Shown here: positions 10,169 to 14,492 of the stretch, one piece after another | Layout of the letters: each line of letters opens with the position of its first letter | Numbering within the stretch: position 1 is the first letter of the stretch | Assembly (NCBI GenBank): GCA_947489685.1 | Contig: CANLEM010000001.1 | Coordinates: 124,001 to 188,000, forward strand | Source of the DNA: an uncultured Aquimarina sp. | Lineage (GTDB): Bacteria; Bacteroidota; Bacteroidia; Flavobacteriales; Flavobacteriaceae | Direction of reading: 5' to 3' | Length of the DNA stretch: 64,000 nucleotides | Program-made: the position numbers and the translations under genes | Notes under the pieces: model-generated | What the model saw: the letters and a program-made list of their open reading frames with translations, nothing else | Told to the model about the DNA's origin: nothing | The model's database searches: none

Positions 10169-11206
10169 TTATTCTTTTACAATCTTTATAGCTTCGATAA
10201 TTTTTTCTTCAAGCTCTTCCATCAATTCAGGATTGTCATTAAGTAATGCTTTTACAGCATCTCTTCCTTGTCCCAATTTAGTGTCTTGATAGCTAAACCA
10301 AGAGCCACTTTTTTTAATGATTTCGTAATCTACCCCAATATCAATAATTTCTCCATTTTTAGAAATCCCTTCGCCATACATGATATCAAACTCTGCAGTT
10401 CTAAATGGTGGAGCTACTTTGTTTTTTACAACTTTTACACGAGTTTTATTCCCCTGTACTTCGCTATTACTATTTTTGATTTGGGTAGAACGACGAATAT
10501 CCAAACGCACCGAAGCATAAAACTTTAATGCATTACCACCGGTTGTAGTTTCTGGGTTTCCAAACATAACCCCAATCTTTTCTCTAAGCTGATTGATAAA
10601 TATAACTGTACAATTTGTTTTGCTAATCGAACTTGTTAATTTCCGAAGTGCCTGAGACATTAATCTTGCATGTAATCCCATCTTAGAATCCCCCATTTCA
10701 CCTTCAATTTCACTTTTTGGAGTAAGAGCGGCTACAGAATCAATTACGATAATGTCAATCGCACCAGATCGTATAAGATTATCTGCGATTTCTAAAGCTT
10801 GCTCACCATGATCAGGTTGAGAAATAATAAGATCGTCAATATCAACTCCTAGTTTTTCGGCATAAAAACGATCAAAAGCATGCTCTGCATCTATAAAAGC
10901 AGCAATACCTCCTGCTTTTTGTGCTTGAGCAATCGCATGTAAAGTAAGGGTAGTTTTTCCAGAAGATTCTGGTCCGTAAATTTCAATTACTCTACCTCTT
11001 GGATATCCTCCAACACCCAAAGCTAAATCCAAACCAAGAGACCCGGTTGAGATTACATCTACTTCTTGAACCGAGCTATCGCTCATCTTCATTACTGTTC
11101 CTTTTCCGTATGCTTTATCTAATTTATCTAGGGTAAGTTTTAATGCTTTTAATTTCGCGTCTTTCTCTGTACTCATTTGTTGTTCAAATATATCGGGATT
11201 TGACAT
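10169..11206 (-). CDS. recA: Recombinase RecA
   Basis: 345 aa. RecA forms ATP-dependent filaments on single-stranded DNA for homologous recombination and activates LexA-type cleavage. Walker A is [10 protein letters not shown] at 78-87, Walker B region [12 protein letters not shown], and the L2 loop region [22 protein letters not shown] is intact. The first ten residues ([10 protein letters not shown]) are an extension; related proteins generally begin at what is here Met11 ([30 protein letters not shown]), so the true start may be 11176. Monocistronic with its own terminator. No LexA-like box is obvious upstream. Confidence 0.98.
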
Positions 11207-11522: not shown

Positions 11523-11571
11523 CTTCGTTATTTCATTTAGTCGTTTAATTAAATAAATAACGAATTAGCCC

Positions 11572-11608
11572 AAAAAATGCCTTGAATATACTTTCAAGGC
11601 ATTTTTTA
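11572..11608 (+). terminator. Strong terminator, copy 1 of a duplicated element
   Basis: 15-bp perfect stem AAAAAATGCCTTGAA / TTCAAGGCATTTTTT with loop TATACT. No recognised gene precedes it on the plus strand, so it marks the end of an unannotated transcript. A near-identical copy lies at 12540-12575. Confidence 0.85.
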
Positions 11609-11763
11609 TTTCATAATAGTATTTGTCTTTTGCCAAGGATAAAAATAATCAACGTAGGATGATTAGGGAACAATAGTACATGATATAGAAACATATGTTC
11701 AAGTAGGCTTCCTTTGGTTAGTTTACTTTTAGACGTAATGTTTAATTTTAAAATTCAACTATC

Positions 11764-12381
11764 ATGAAAAAACTATTTTTCATCATTGGGGTATTGGTAC
11801 TAGCACAAATATCCTGTGAAAAAGAAGACATTGAAGAATTAGAATTGGAAACATCTATTACCGAGAGTGAAAAAATGTATCCAACATCATCATTTCCATT
11901 ATCAACAACACCATCGCCAACAAAAATGGTGCTTCGTGAAATTCGCTTATCAAATGACCATGAAAATATATTACGAGGAAAAGCAGATATTTATGCAATT
12001 ATTTCGGGATTTAAAGATGCACAGAAAAACCCCTTGGTTAAAAAGGTACAATTAAAATTTTTGGATCATGATAAGAAGACCTATCGTCCAGAAAACTTTA
12101 TTCTAGTCGATTGGACCGAATTTAAGTTGAATACAGTAAGAATAGAATTATGGGAACACGATTGTTGCCCTAGTGGTGGTAATTTCCGCAATTCATTTGA
12201 AGATGGAGAATTTGCACATATGAGTGAGTTCGAAGCTTTGGATGCGATTTACCAAAAATTTATTTATCATGGGATACAAGATGACAAGGTAGACACATTT
12301 AAATATGTTGAAAAAAATCGAAACTATAGTAATCACTATGGCAGTTTGAATAATGCTAAAGTAAAATTCTATAAAAGGTAA
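11764..12381 (+). CDS. Exported lipoprotein of unknown function (possibly DUF3103-like)
   Basis: 205 aa. MKKLFFIIGVLVLAQISCEKED is a lipoprotein signal with cysteine at 18. A Thr/Ser/Pro-rich linker follows (about 35-55). The middle (GKADIYAIISGFKDAQKNPLVKK, LKFLDHDKKTYRPENFILVDW, RIELWEHDCCP) reminds me of the C-terminal region of DUF3103 proteins; this is from memory and not verified. The vicinal CC and the acidic stretch after it are notable. The gene is bracketed by two copies of the same terminator and faces two small minus-strand peptide genes. Function unknown. Confidence 0.7.
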   Translation: MKKLFFIIGVLVLAQISCEKEDIEELELETSITESEKMYPTSSFPLSTTPSPTKMVLREIRLSNDHENILRGKADIYAIISGFKDAQKNPLVKKVQLKFLDHDKKTYRPENFILVDWTEFKLNTVRIELWEHDCCPSGGNFRNSFEDGEFAHMSEFEALDAIYQKFIYHGIQDDKVDTFKYVEKNRNYSNHYGSLNNAKVKFYKR

Positions 12382-12539
12382 TAACAAGTATATTATGATC
12401 TGATGGCAGGAATGAAATCTACCGACTATTGAGAATACTGAAAAATGGTATACCAGACTCGTTAACAACTCTATGCTATCAGGGTAATTTTATCGGAAAT
12501 TGTACAACCACATAAACCCATTAAATAAAGAATTGGCTC

Positions 12540-12576
12540 AAAAAATGCCTTGAAAGTGCTTTCAAGGCATTTTTTA
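12540..12576. terminator. Bidirectional terminator, copy 2 of a duplicated element
   Basis: Stem AAAAAATGCCTTGAA / TTCAAGGCATTTTTT, which extends inward (AAG/CTT), giving a very stable hairpin with T-runs on both strands. It would end both the lipoprotein gene and the minus-strand peptide genes. The flanks match copy 1 at 11572 (preceding TAAATAA.GAATT.G.CC in both). Confidence 0.88.
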
Positions 12577-12626
12577 TAGTACAAAGGTCGTTTGAATATC
12601 ATTAAATTACTCCCCCGTAATTGCTA

Positions 12627-12791
12627 TTAACGACAAGCGCATTCGCTAATGTCGCATGTTCCTCCAGAATAAGGGATGTCACAAACATTCCTGTCAGTCA
12701 AAACGCTACCCCCTTTAATTGTTTGACTCTGGAAGTTTGAAATAACCATTTTGTCTAAATTTAATTTTGTCGGTTTCTTTTTTCTTTTCAT
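12627..12791 (-). CDS. Candidate class I lanthipeptide-type precursor peptide
   Basis: 54 aa, ATG at 12791, TAA at 12627; too short for the usual ORF cut-off. The basic N-terminus MKRKKKPTK is followed by LNLDKMVISNF, close to the LxLxKxTIxxL leader motif of Bacteroidetes class I lanthipeptides (pinensin type). A KGG cleavage site follows at 26-28. The 26-residue core begins SVLTDRNVCDIP and has four Cys (37, 46, 51, 53) with Ser/Thr at 29, 32, 42, 45 and 49, suited to (methyl)lanthionine formation. No LanB, LanC or peptidase-transporter gene is in the window, so modification would rely on enzymes elsewhere, or the peptide stays linear. It lies 83 nt downstream of another GG-leader peptide on the same strand and ends before the bidirectional terminator. 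Confidence 0.65.
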   Translation of the reverse strand: MKRKKKPTKLNLDKMVISNFQSQTIKGGSVLTDRNVCDIPYSGGTCDISECACR

Positions 12792-12838
12792 GATTTAAAT
12801 ATTTAATTATTCTAATTTTAGAAATACTACACTTCAGC

Positions 12839-12857
12839 TGTCTTTTGTGAAAAGACA
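12839..12857 (-). promoter_or_regulatory. Intercistronic hairpin between the two small peptide genes
   Basis: Perfect 8-bp stem TGTCTTTT / AAAAGACA with a 3-nt loop, in the 83-nt gap between the two peptide ORFs. No T-run follows on the minus strand, so it is more likely a processing or attenuation structure than a full terminator. Confidence 0.4.
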
Positions 12858-12874
12858 AAGTTGTTTTTTTGTTA

Positions 12875-13069
12875 CTATTTACATTGATTTCTTGTAGTGC
12901 CGCCGTAGCAATTCCCTCCTGGGGCTAGAATACCAAACCCGCCGTTAGGCCCTTCTCCTGTGCTTCCCAAACCGTTGTAGGTGTCTTGGTGATTTCCCCC
13001 TTTTACGCCAATTTGTTGTTTCTTGTTTAATTGATTTACACCTGCTACTTTTAAAATGTTTACTAACAT
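12875..13069 (-). CDS. Candidate double-glycine leader (bacteriocin-type) peptide precursor
   Basis: 64 aa, ATG start, TAG stop. The leader MLVNILKVAGVNQLNKKQQIGVKGG fits the Bacteroidetes short GG-leader pattern (ILKV.GV..LNK.QQ..VKGG), which is normally cut by a C39-type peptidase-ABC exporter. The 39-residue core (from N26) is very Gly-rich (13 Gly) with Ser/Thr/Asn, and has two cysteines, C54 and C63, near the end (GGNCYGG, RNQCK), which could form one disulfide or thioether. No exporter or modifying enzyme is nearby. It is probably the first gene of a two-peptide unit with the lanthipeptide-like ORF. It could also be a peptide signal rather than an antimicrobial. Confidence 0.7.
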   Translation of the reverse strand: MLVNILKVAGVNQLNKKQQIGVKGGNHQDTYNGLGSTGEGPNGGFGILAPGGNCYGGTTRNQCK

Positions 13070-13163
13070 ATTTTACAATATTTTTTATAAGTTTTCTTGA
13101 ACCTTTTATAGACACTCAAGATTTATGTCTTCAACAATATGCTATTTGTTTTCTATCACGGAT

Positions 13164-13177
13164 TTTGATCGATCAAA
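13164..13177. promoter_or_regulatory. Perfect palindrome upstream of the peptide genes (candidate operator)
   Basis: TTTGATCGATCAAA, a 14-nt perfect dyad about 95 nt upstream of the first peptide ATG. A related odd palindrome TTTGATgATCAAA lies at 11295-11307 upstream of the structured block. The sharing may reflect a common regulator or chance in AT-rich DNA. Confidence 0.35.
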
Positions 13178-13390
13178 TCATTTAAATAAACTTTTCATGA
13201 TATAACAAATAGTATTGTTGCTAACAAATGTAGAGAAGGTAGGAGAGGAAAAACAAGTACGATTAACCGCTATTCCGCGAAAACACACTGCGTTTTCAAG
13301 GAATGTAGGTTGGTTATTTTTAAAACTTTAAGGGTTTATATATTTTTCAGAATAGACAGGGGGTATTTTTAGCAAAAAAAGAATAGTCTT

Positions 13391-13460: not shown

Positions 13461-14492
13461 ATGCAACTGTACAATAAATTAAGTGCAAAAGAAAGAGCAG
13501 CACTTATCGATGAGGCAGGAACAGACCGCCTTACGCTATCTTTCTATCAATACGCACACATTGGTAATACAGAGATTTTTAGAAATCACCTTTTTATTCA
13601 CTGGAACGAGCTTGATGTCCTGGGTAGGATTTATGTAGCACACGAAGGAATCAATGGTCAATTATCGGTTCCGGCGCCAAATTTTAAAGCCTTCAAAGAG
13701 CATTTGGATAGCATATCGTTTTTAGAAAACGTACGTCTTAATATAGCTAGAGAGCAGGATATTAAATCTTTTCTAAAGCTAAAAGTAAAAGTCCGCCATA
13801 AAATAGTTGCCGATGGACTTAATGATGAGACTTTTGATGTTACCAACAAAGGTATGCATGTCGATGCAAAAGGATTTAATGATTTGATCGAAGATCCCAA
13901 TACGGTTTTGGTAGATATGCGTAATCATTATGAAAGTGAGATAGGTCATTTTAAAGGAGCGATAACACCTGATGTAGATACATTTAGAGATTCTTTGGAT
14001 ATTATCGAAGAAGACCTTAAAGATCACAAGGAAGATAAAAAATTAGTAATGTATTGCACAGGGGGGATTCGTTGCGAAAAAGCCAGCGCATATTACAAGC
14101 ACAAAGGTTTCAAAAATGTTTTTCAGTTAGAAGGTGGTATTATAGAATATGCCAGACAAGTTGAAGAAAAAGGTTTGGAAAACAAATTTTTGGGTAAAAA
14201 CTTCGTTTTTGATCATAGAAGAGCAGAACGAATCACAGATGATGTCATCTCAAATTGTCATCAATGTGGTAAGCCCTGTGACACACATGTAAATTGTGAA
14301 AACGAAGCCTGTCATTTACTTTTTATTCAGTGCGAGGACTGTGCTTCAGAAATGGATAACTGTTGTTCTACAGATTGTAAAGAAATAAATAGTTTGCCTT
14401 TTGAAGAGCAAAAAGCGCTTCGAAAAGGAAAAGGAAATAGTAATAAAATTTTTAAAAAAGGACGTTCGGCAGCTCTGAAATTCAAGGAGTAG
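13461..14492 (+). CDS. trhO: tRNA uridine(34) hydroxylase, rhodanese family (TrhO/YceA)
   Basis: 343 aa. TrhO makes 5-hydroxyuridine at position 34 of certain tRNAs using oxygen. The N-terminal YceA domain (about 1-120, with RIYVAHEGINGQLSVP) is followed by a rhodanese domain (about 140-240) carrying the catalytic loop CTGGIRC at 199-205. A C-terminal cysteine-rich region (CHQCGKPCDTHVNC, CEDCASEMDNCCS, about 270-310) fits the zinc-binding tail found in many homologues. The last 30 residues are basic. Transcribed alone from a consensus promoter. Confidence 0.95.
   Translation: MQLYNKLSAKERAALIDEAGTDRLTLSFYQYAHIGNTEIFRNHLFIHWNELDVLGRIYVAHEGINGQLSVPAPNFKAFKEHLDSISFLENVRLNIAREQDIKSFLKLKVKVRHKIVADGLNDETFDVTNKGMHVDAKGFNDLIEDPNTVLVDMRNHYESEIGHFKGAITPDVDTFRDSLDIIEEDLKDHKEDKKLVMYCTGGIRCEKASAYYKHKGFKNVFQLEGGIIEYARQVEEKGLENKFLGKNFVFDHRRAERITDDVISNCHQCGKPCDTHVNCENEACHLLFIQCEDCASEMDNCCSTDCKEINSLPFEEQKALRKGKGNSNKIFKKGRSAALKFKE

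Follow-up and report, generated by a model that had tools for sequence, protein, structure and literature searches.

The window analysed here is the whole 64,000-nt stretch C1:124001-188000 of an uncultured Aquimarina sp., within a 4.7-Mb assembly that is 99% complete. It contains two adjacent short open reading frames on the minus strand, in the following called pepA and pepB. They lie in a slot next to a rhodanese-family gene, which we take to be trhO; across the slot from it is a gene that, judged from its sequence, is presumably recA. The 11 trhO loci most similar to the one in the window all bear the name Aquimarina. The features of the region are as follows.

12627..12791, minus strand: pepA precursor, 54 aa, with leader residues 1-28 (MKRKKKPTKLNLDKMVISNFQSQTIKGG) and core residues 29-54 (open reading frame, leave-out leader HMM, orthologues beside trhO)
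12708..12791, minus strand: pepA leader, GG-terminated (sequence, class A leader alignment)
12630..12707, minus strand: pepA core peptide (sequence; C-terminal T-C-x-x-S-x-C-x-C common to three orthologues)
12875..13069, minus strand: pepB precursor, 64 aa, with leader residues 1-25 (MLVNILKVAGVNQLNKKQQIGVKGG) and a Gly-rich 39-residue core with two Cys (open reading frame, leave-out HMM)
12796..13081, minus strand: pepB-bearing segment of ~285 bp that isolate 2-536A lacks in its pepA slot (blastn, alignment)
13225..13256, minus strand: upstream of pepB, a candidate promoter of Bacteroidetes type, TTG-N21-TACATTTG (alignment)
12540..12575, no strand assigned: perfect inverted repeat with T/A tails, a probable bidirectional terminator, just past pepA (sequence)
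13461..14492, plus strand: flanking rhodanese-family gene, the presumed trhO (open reading frame; 78-91% identical across the 80 loci kept)
10169..11206, minus strand: presumed recA, far side of the slot (open reading frame)

Both peptides have a short leader with Lys that ends in GG. In pepA, the motif LNLDKMVISNF is followed by KGG and a 26-residue core with four Cys and five Ser/Thr; pepB carries ILKVAGVNQLNKKQQ, then VKGG and its Gly-rich core. The open reading frames and leaders, GG sites and cores described for them in a sequence-only reading of this DNA were thus borne out, and so was its proposal of RiPP-type precursors. Leader HMMs were built from relatives' leaders and searched against all window ORFs of at least 25 aa. 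Leaving out pepA together with the two orthologues in the alignment gave a model that ranked pepA first (E 5.1e-12; runner-up ORF 0.3), and a model lacking pepB ranked pepB first (E 2.4e-11; runner-up ORF 0.11). The leader likeness of both peptides exceeds chance. Compared with three orthologues, and with few sites available, the pepA leader shows dN of 0.16-0.22 at dS of 0.76-1.34, and the core dN of 0.50-0.59 at dS from 1.04 to saturated. Constraint on these alignments is strong on the leader and much weaker on the core, whose sequence has diverged and whose length falls 7-8 residues short of the orthologous cores. The closest match to pepB among 55 other genomes has 44% identity (E 7.5e-5), and a comparison of pepB with plasmids gave no match.

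The resemblance of pepA to Bacteroidetes class I lanthipeptides with GG leaders, also noted in the sequence-only reading, was upheld. Class I leaders of the type LxLxKx5L plus GG, together with split LanB enzymes, have been described for Bacteroidetes by Walker et al. 2020 (PMC7268733), and LNLDKMVISNF fits this motif save for F in place of the last L. Against RiPP precursor HMMs, pepA gave a weak match to NF038153 (lant_leader_L1a; 14.9 bits, below the cut-off of 22) and pepB had no match in NCBIfam or Pfam. NF038153 used as a query against whole genomes returned zero matches, controls included, and was hence uninformative. The more specific assignment to the pinensin type found no support: neither peptide matched the pinensin leader model NF038180 up to a limit of E 10, a search in which HMMER filters drop most weak matches, and the pinensin reading was ranked second.

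Conserved copies in related genomes, which the sequence-only reading had proposed to look for, exist for pepA. Orthologues lie beside trhO in G015 (57% identity), in A. aggregata and in isolate 2-536A, in the last within a longer start-to-stop ORF, and the C-terminal T-C-x-x-S-x-C-x-C is common to all four. The presumed trhO borders the slot in every locus; recA lies opposite in 10 of the 11 named Aquimarina loci, the exception being 637-3Z, and in G015 the far side holds other genes and no recA. The content of the slot varies. In Aq78 and A. atlantica a B-like peptide (see below) takes the place of pepA, the slot of A. longa contains a B-like remnant that is broken, and in 4R5, MMG016, 3-198, A. 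muelleri and A. mytili the slot has no same-strand ORF of at least 20 aa with GG. All three relatives with pepA lack pepB in the slot. When the slot was compared by blastn with that of 2-536A, slot positions 1-379 of our genome corresponded to 1-375 and slot positions 665-755 to 380-470. The intervening pepB segment looks like an insertion of ~285 bp between pepA and its upstream region, with loss elsewhere as the alternative. Because deep support in the recA plus trhO tree is weak (32-68, with G015 placed by trhO alone), the tree gives no count of pepA gains or losses and does not discriminate between insertion and loss of pepB.

The candidate promoter upstream of pepB resembles what we take to be the Bacteroidetes consensus. 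G015 and 2-536A have the same elements at the same spacing in the equivalent position, and it is absent from the corresponding alignment positions of A. aggregata, Aq78 and A. atlantica. The pattern alone is near chance, with three occurrences in the window versus 2.06 expected, and a sigma-70 promoter scan (seven sites versus 4.3 expected) was not used as evidence. A palindrome, TTTGATCGATCAAA, lies upstream of pepB at about 13164-13177 and is a possible operator. On the other side, a 56-bp element around the inverted repeat has a match in 8 of 11 relatives' slots, at one place each; a terminator scan listed no terminator, this repeat included. The repeat occurs in two copies (12522-12577 and 11554-11609; 89% identical over 56 bp), which flank a lipoprotein-like ORF at 11764-12381. 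The simplest reading of this arrangement is a single pepB-then-pepA transcript, in which pepB would have slipped in under the pepA promoter.

The sequence-only reading had found no modifying enzyme within 10 kb and had placed the enzymes elsewhere in the genome. Both points hold for LanB, LanC and C39, all of which were found by a whole-genome search. The genome has one LanB of the split type, a Lant_dehydr_N protein with a separate, adjoining Lant_dehydr_C protein. There are three LanC (PF05147) matches; their open frames, of 421-457 aa, do not have the length for a class II LanM synthetase. All three carry the WC and CHG motifs, which hold zinc in LanC. Of six C39 matches, four fall in frames 729-760 aa long (in one of these the ABC exporter domains were checked) and two weak ones in fusion proteins described below. 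On the same contig, LanB lies 137 kb and the closest LanC ~129 kb from pepA; a full-length C39 match comes nearest to the two genes at ~60 kb (60.7 kb from pepA), and 456 kb separate pepB from a fusion protein. In G015, a LanC-like gene with two in-frame stops (C15:22580-23470) adjoins LanB and LanC matches without stops.

The leaders of pepA and pepB fell into distinct classes in separate alignments, here called A and B, the latter with the pattern MLxNILxxxGVxxLNKxQQxxIxGG. In a profile search at E 0.01, class A was present in 33 and class B in 43 of 52 genomes of the genus Aquimarina. Across the family (one genome per genus, E 0.001), class B was found in 16 of 149 genomes, our own included. 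The genome studied here has 14 A and 19 B leaders, and the highest B count in any genome of the genus is 47. Among the 13 of the 14 A leaders that were listed, five lie within 10 kb of LanB or LanC and one within 10 kb of C39; among the 19 B leaders, one is within 10 kb of LanB or LanC and three adjoin a fusion protein. More than 10 kb from any LanB, LanC, C39 or fusion match, or on a contig without one, are 7 of the 13 listed A and 15 of the 19 B leaders. The genome thus has ~30 such peptide genes, most of them distant from the enzymes that would process them, and the orphan position that had been called unusual is common in it.

Further genes recur in these surroundings. Next to a C39 exporter lies a run of precursors (L016:11244-14966) whose leaders are of a KKLSLKKMNxAQL type with KGG, perhaps a further leader type. 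AraC-type HTH proteins of 539-577 aa, the majority of which also have TPR repeats, are found repeatedly close to KGG precursor genes and may regulate them (L258:7172-8896, L267:9593-11302, L012:16787-18520, L012:10870-12489, L016:5231-6949, L015:11196-12908). TPR-CHAT proteins of 907-1025 aa are found near class A and B genes (L264:6189-8960, L081:10614-13337, L260:1896-4973), with what we take to be sigma and anti-sigma genes close by.

To relate the two classes to the enzymes, we compared their occurrence in the genus; these statistics, including the rank correlations below, ignore phylogeny. A leaders were present in 32 of 41 LanB-positive versus 1 of 11 LanB-negative genomes (Fisher p 5e-5), and at a completeness of at least 90% in 31 of 39 versus 0 of 7 (Fisher p 1.2e-4). 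The only LanB-negative genome with an A leader, G030, has a single weak match (E 0.0035). At this cut-off, no A leader was found in nine of the 41 LanB-positive genomes; among the 14 LanC-negative genomes, three each had a single one. Raw counts for B leaders were similar (40 of 41 versus 3 of 11, p 1.9e-6). Since both classes correlate with LanB, presence or absence cannot separate A from B, and we therefore used partial rank correlations together with the LanB-less genome G008. Over the 46 genomes at least 90% complete, the correlation with LanC was 0.54 for class A after controlling for B (permutation p 0.0002) and 0.03 for class B after controlling for A (p 0.40). In G008, 22 B leaders occur with no A leader and with no LanB or LanC match.

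The cores point in the same direction. They were taken from profile hits of at least 15 bits at loci other than L098-L166 and collapsed at 70% similarity, after 19 class B and two class A hits with a match not ending on GG had been dropped. Class A cores, which include one precursor from the L016:11244-14966 run, have an even Cys number in 18 cases and an odd one in 22 (p 0.64), and in 38 of 42 Ser/Thr residues are at least as many as Cys. This make-up agrees with what thioether chemistry would need. Among the 94 class B cores with any Cys, a set to which other genera of the family contribute some members, 81 have an even and 13 an odd number (p 4e-13), mostly four or six, versus the two of pepB, and Ser/Thr equals or exceeds Cys in 45 of 95. 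This is the pattern that disulfides would be expected to leave.

These data suggest that pepA is a precursor of class I lanthipeptide type, processed in trans, and that pepB belongs to a LanB-independent, disulfide class, a reading to which we assign a probability of about 0.55. For pepA by itself a lanthipeptide-type precursor of class I is the best reading: numbers of its leader class follow LanC once class B is allowed for, and orthologues adjoin trhO in three relatives. pepB is most likely not a lanthipeptide; a class I lanthipeptide leader was rejected for it, given that its leader has no library match and that its class is abundant in G008. The slot would probably encode two peptides of different kinds, both secreted, one ring-tied by distant enzymes and one disulfide-held.

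That neither peptide carries thioethers, both being GG-leader bacteriocin-like peptides, disulfide-bonded or unmodified and exported by C39, appears unlikely, at about one chance in five. Both leaders are GG-terminated, C39 matches occur in 48 of 52 genus genomes, the Cys number of pepA is even and its score lies under the NF038153 cut-off, all of which would fit such peptides. Against this, class A cores show no even-Cys bias and mostly an excess of Ser/Thr, class A counts track LanC once class B is allowed for, and two class A leaders begin 394 and 396 bp ahead of LanC matches.

The sequence-only reading had combined both genes into one two-peptide unit acted on by LanB and LanC, that is, a two-peptide class I lanthipeptide with the distant enzymes acting on both, which on the present data is improbable. 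It could draw on the adjacency of the genes on one strand, perhaps in a single transcript, and on the clustering of the two classes in this genome, where 5 of the 13 listed A leaders lie within 1 kb of a B leader versus 0.10 expected were B uniform. A and B genes adjoin also in G004 and G032, the LanBC cluster of our genome includes precursors of both leader classes, and 1 of 24 class B members scanned matched the pinensin leader NF038180 weakly (E 0.018; another matched NF038153 at E 0.5). However, the leader classes of the two peptides differ, G008 has 22 B leaders without a LanB or LanC match, and the cores of class B tend to even Cys counts and are poorer in Ser/Thr. Because three relatives have pepA in the slot without pepB, the nearness of A and B does not indicate a two-peptide lantibiotic; it may reflect joint regulation or a common insertion habit.

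A candidate for the oxidation of class B peptides is a fusion protein of ~525-570 aa whose genes adjoin B genes in our genome (L018) as well as in G014, G008, G017 and G060; the G014 locus had been picked for its B gene, not for a fusion. For three related fusion proteins (L018:7923-9629, L015:13563-15245, L083:7555-9150), Pfam assigned C39-like, VKOR and thioredoxin domains, some of the C39 and thioredoxin matches being below cut-off, and further members were found by blastp (L269-L274, L276). In an alignment of ten fusions, the catalytic Cys motif and the Asp of the C39-like part are missing in all ten and the His in eight, hence we call them pseudo-C39-VKOR-thioredoxin fusions. In G008 and G016 the fusion adjoins a C39 exporter. 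Within 2.5 kb of a fusion lie 18 of 52 B genes and 0 of 24 A genes, counted over large loci of which several were fetched for holding a fusion. From this arrangement we infer that the fusion binds class B leaders and oxidises the cores. A search, narrow in wording and coverage, found no paper treating vitamin K epoxide reductase and peptidase C39 together.

Modification of class B by another RiPP enzyme, for instance a radical SAM protein, rather than via disulfides has a low probability. Five of the 24 class B members scanned gave weak matches to TIGR04149 (radical-SAM-modified RiPP; best E 0.0013), whereas pepB itself has none, and the even-Cys bias and the VKOR-thioredoxin fusion near B clusters point to disulfides. 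In the same scan, two members matched leader_Chryseo (0.01) and one ComC (1.5e-5). Similarly improbable is that pepA, pepB or both are decaying relics that have lost expression or maturation: slots without such a gene in five relatives, the broken remnant in A. longa and the shortened, diverged pepA core would allow it, against which stand intact frames with GG sites in both genes, a pepA leader dN far under dS and a promoter-like element retained in three genomes.

For the preferred reading, that of a lanthipeptide-type pepA and a disulfide-class pepB, the following course can be proposed. pepB and pepA would be co-transcribed from a single promoter toward the terminator past pepA. The pepA leader would be recognised in trans by the single split LanB, which would dehydrate Ser/Thr residues of the core, and one of the three LanC proteins would form thioether rings using the four Cys. 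A C39 exporter would then cleave pepA after GG and secrete the product. pepB would likewise be cleaved and exported by a C39 exporter, with no LanB involved, and its Cys pair would be joined as a disulfide, probably by the pseudo-C39-VKOR-thioredoxin fusion; the C39-like domain of this fusion, which seems to be inactive, could bind the leader. As to function, we infer that antagonism or signalling toward related bacteria is most likely.

Parts of this scheme have known counterparts. Like the precursors of Walker et al. (PMC7268733), pepA has a GG site, as KGG, and a core with Cys and Ser/Thr, its LNLDKMVISNF comes close to their leader motif, and its genome has a split LanB and C39; it differs in the last motif position, in its sub-cut-off NCBIfam score and in lacking a cluster of its own around it. 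Pinensins, mentioned in the same paper (PMC7268733), are likewise Bacteroidetes class I products with a split LanB and differ in the leader, as given above. Prochlorosins and synechococsins have scattered precursors, some of them lone genes, and few enzymes, with one enzyme serving many precursors (PMC10783134). The dispersed precursors and few enzymes are matched here by 14 A leaders with one LanB and three LanC matches. Unlike prochlorosins, which rely on class II LanM and are assigned to the Nif11 family (PMC10783134), the Aquimarina system has a split LanB, separate LanC and short GG leaders, and the service of many precursors by one enzyme, described for prochlorosins (PMC10783134), would be a parallel in Aquimarina that the gene counts suggest. 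Bacteroidetocins (class IIf) are GG peptides, probably disulfide-bonded, encoded in the same region as their exporter, and most of the family goes with a thiol oxidoreductase gene (PMC6671954). pepB resembles them in its GG leader, its Cys-bearing core and the presence of a C39 exporter in the genome; it differs in its leader of 25 aa versus 15-16 (PMC6671954), in the distance to the nearest full-length C39 and in that the oxidoreductase proposed for it is a fusion encoded elsewhere. On account of the leader length and the lack of an adjoining C39 exporter, assignment of pepB to class IIf was rejected.

Aquimarina is already known for its wealth of biosynthetic clusters (PMC10734526), and among titles and opening parts of abstracts we found no prior description of lone precursor repertoires in this genus. 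As a tentative model, held at somewhat less than even odds, the genus would run two in-trans repertoires of lone genes: a thioether one, served by one LanB/LanC set, and a larger disulfide one, with as many as 47 leaders in a genome, that would rely on common C39 exporters and the leader-binding fusion oxidase. Small precursor cassettes would enter intergenic slots, where one promoter serves whichever is there, so that products turn over and enzymes stay. If true, a LanB/LanC set of class I acting on many substrates scattered through the genome would parallel the class II prochlorosins, and the pseudo-C39-VKOR-thioredoxin fusion offers a testable route by which a bacterium could oxidise many leader-tagged peptides. 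Cluster mining, which locates RiPPs through their enzymes, could overlook much of the output of this genus should many precursors stand alone, as the counts suggest.
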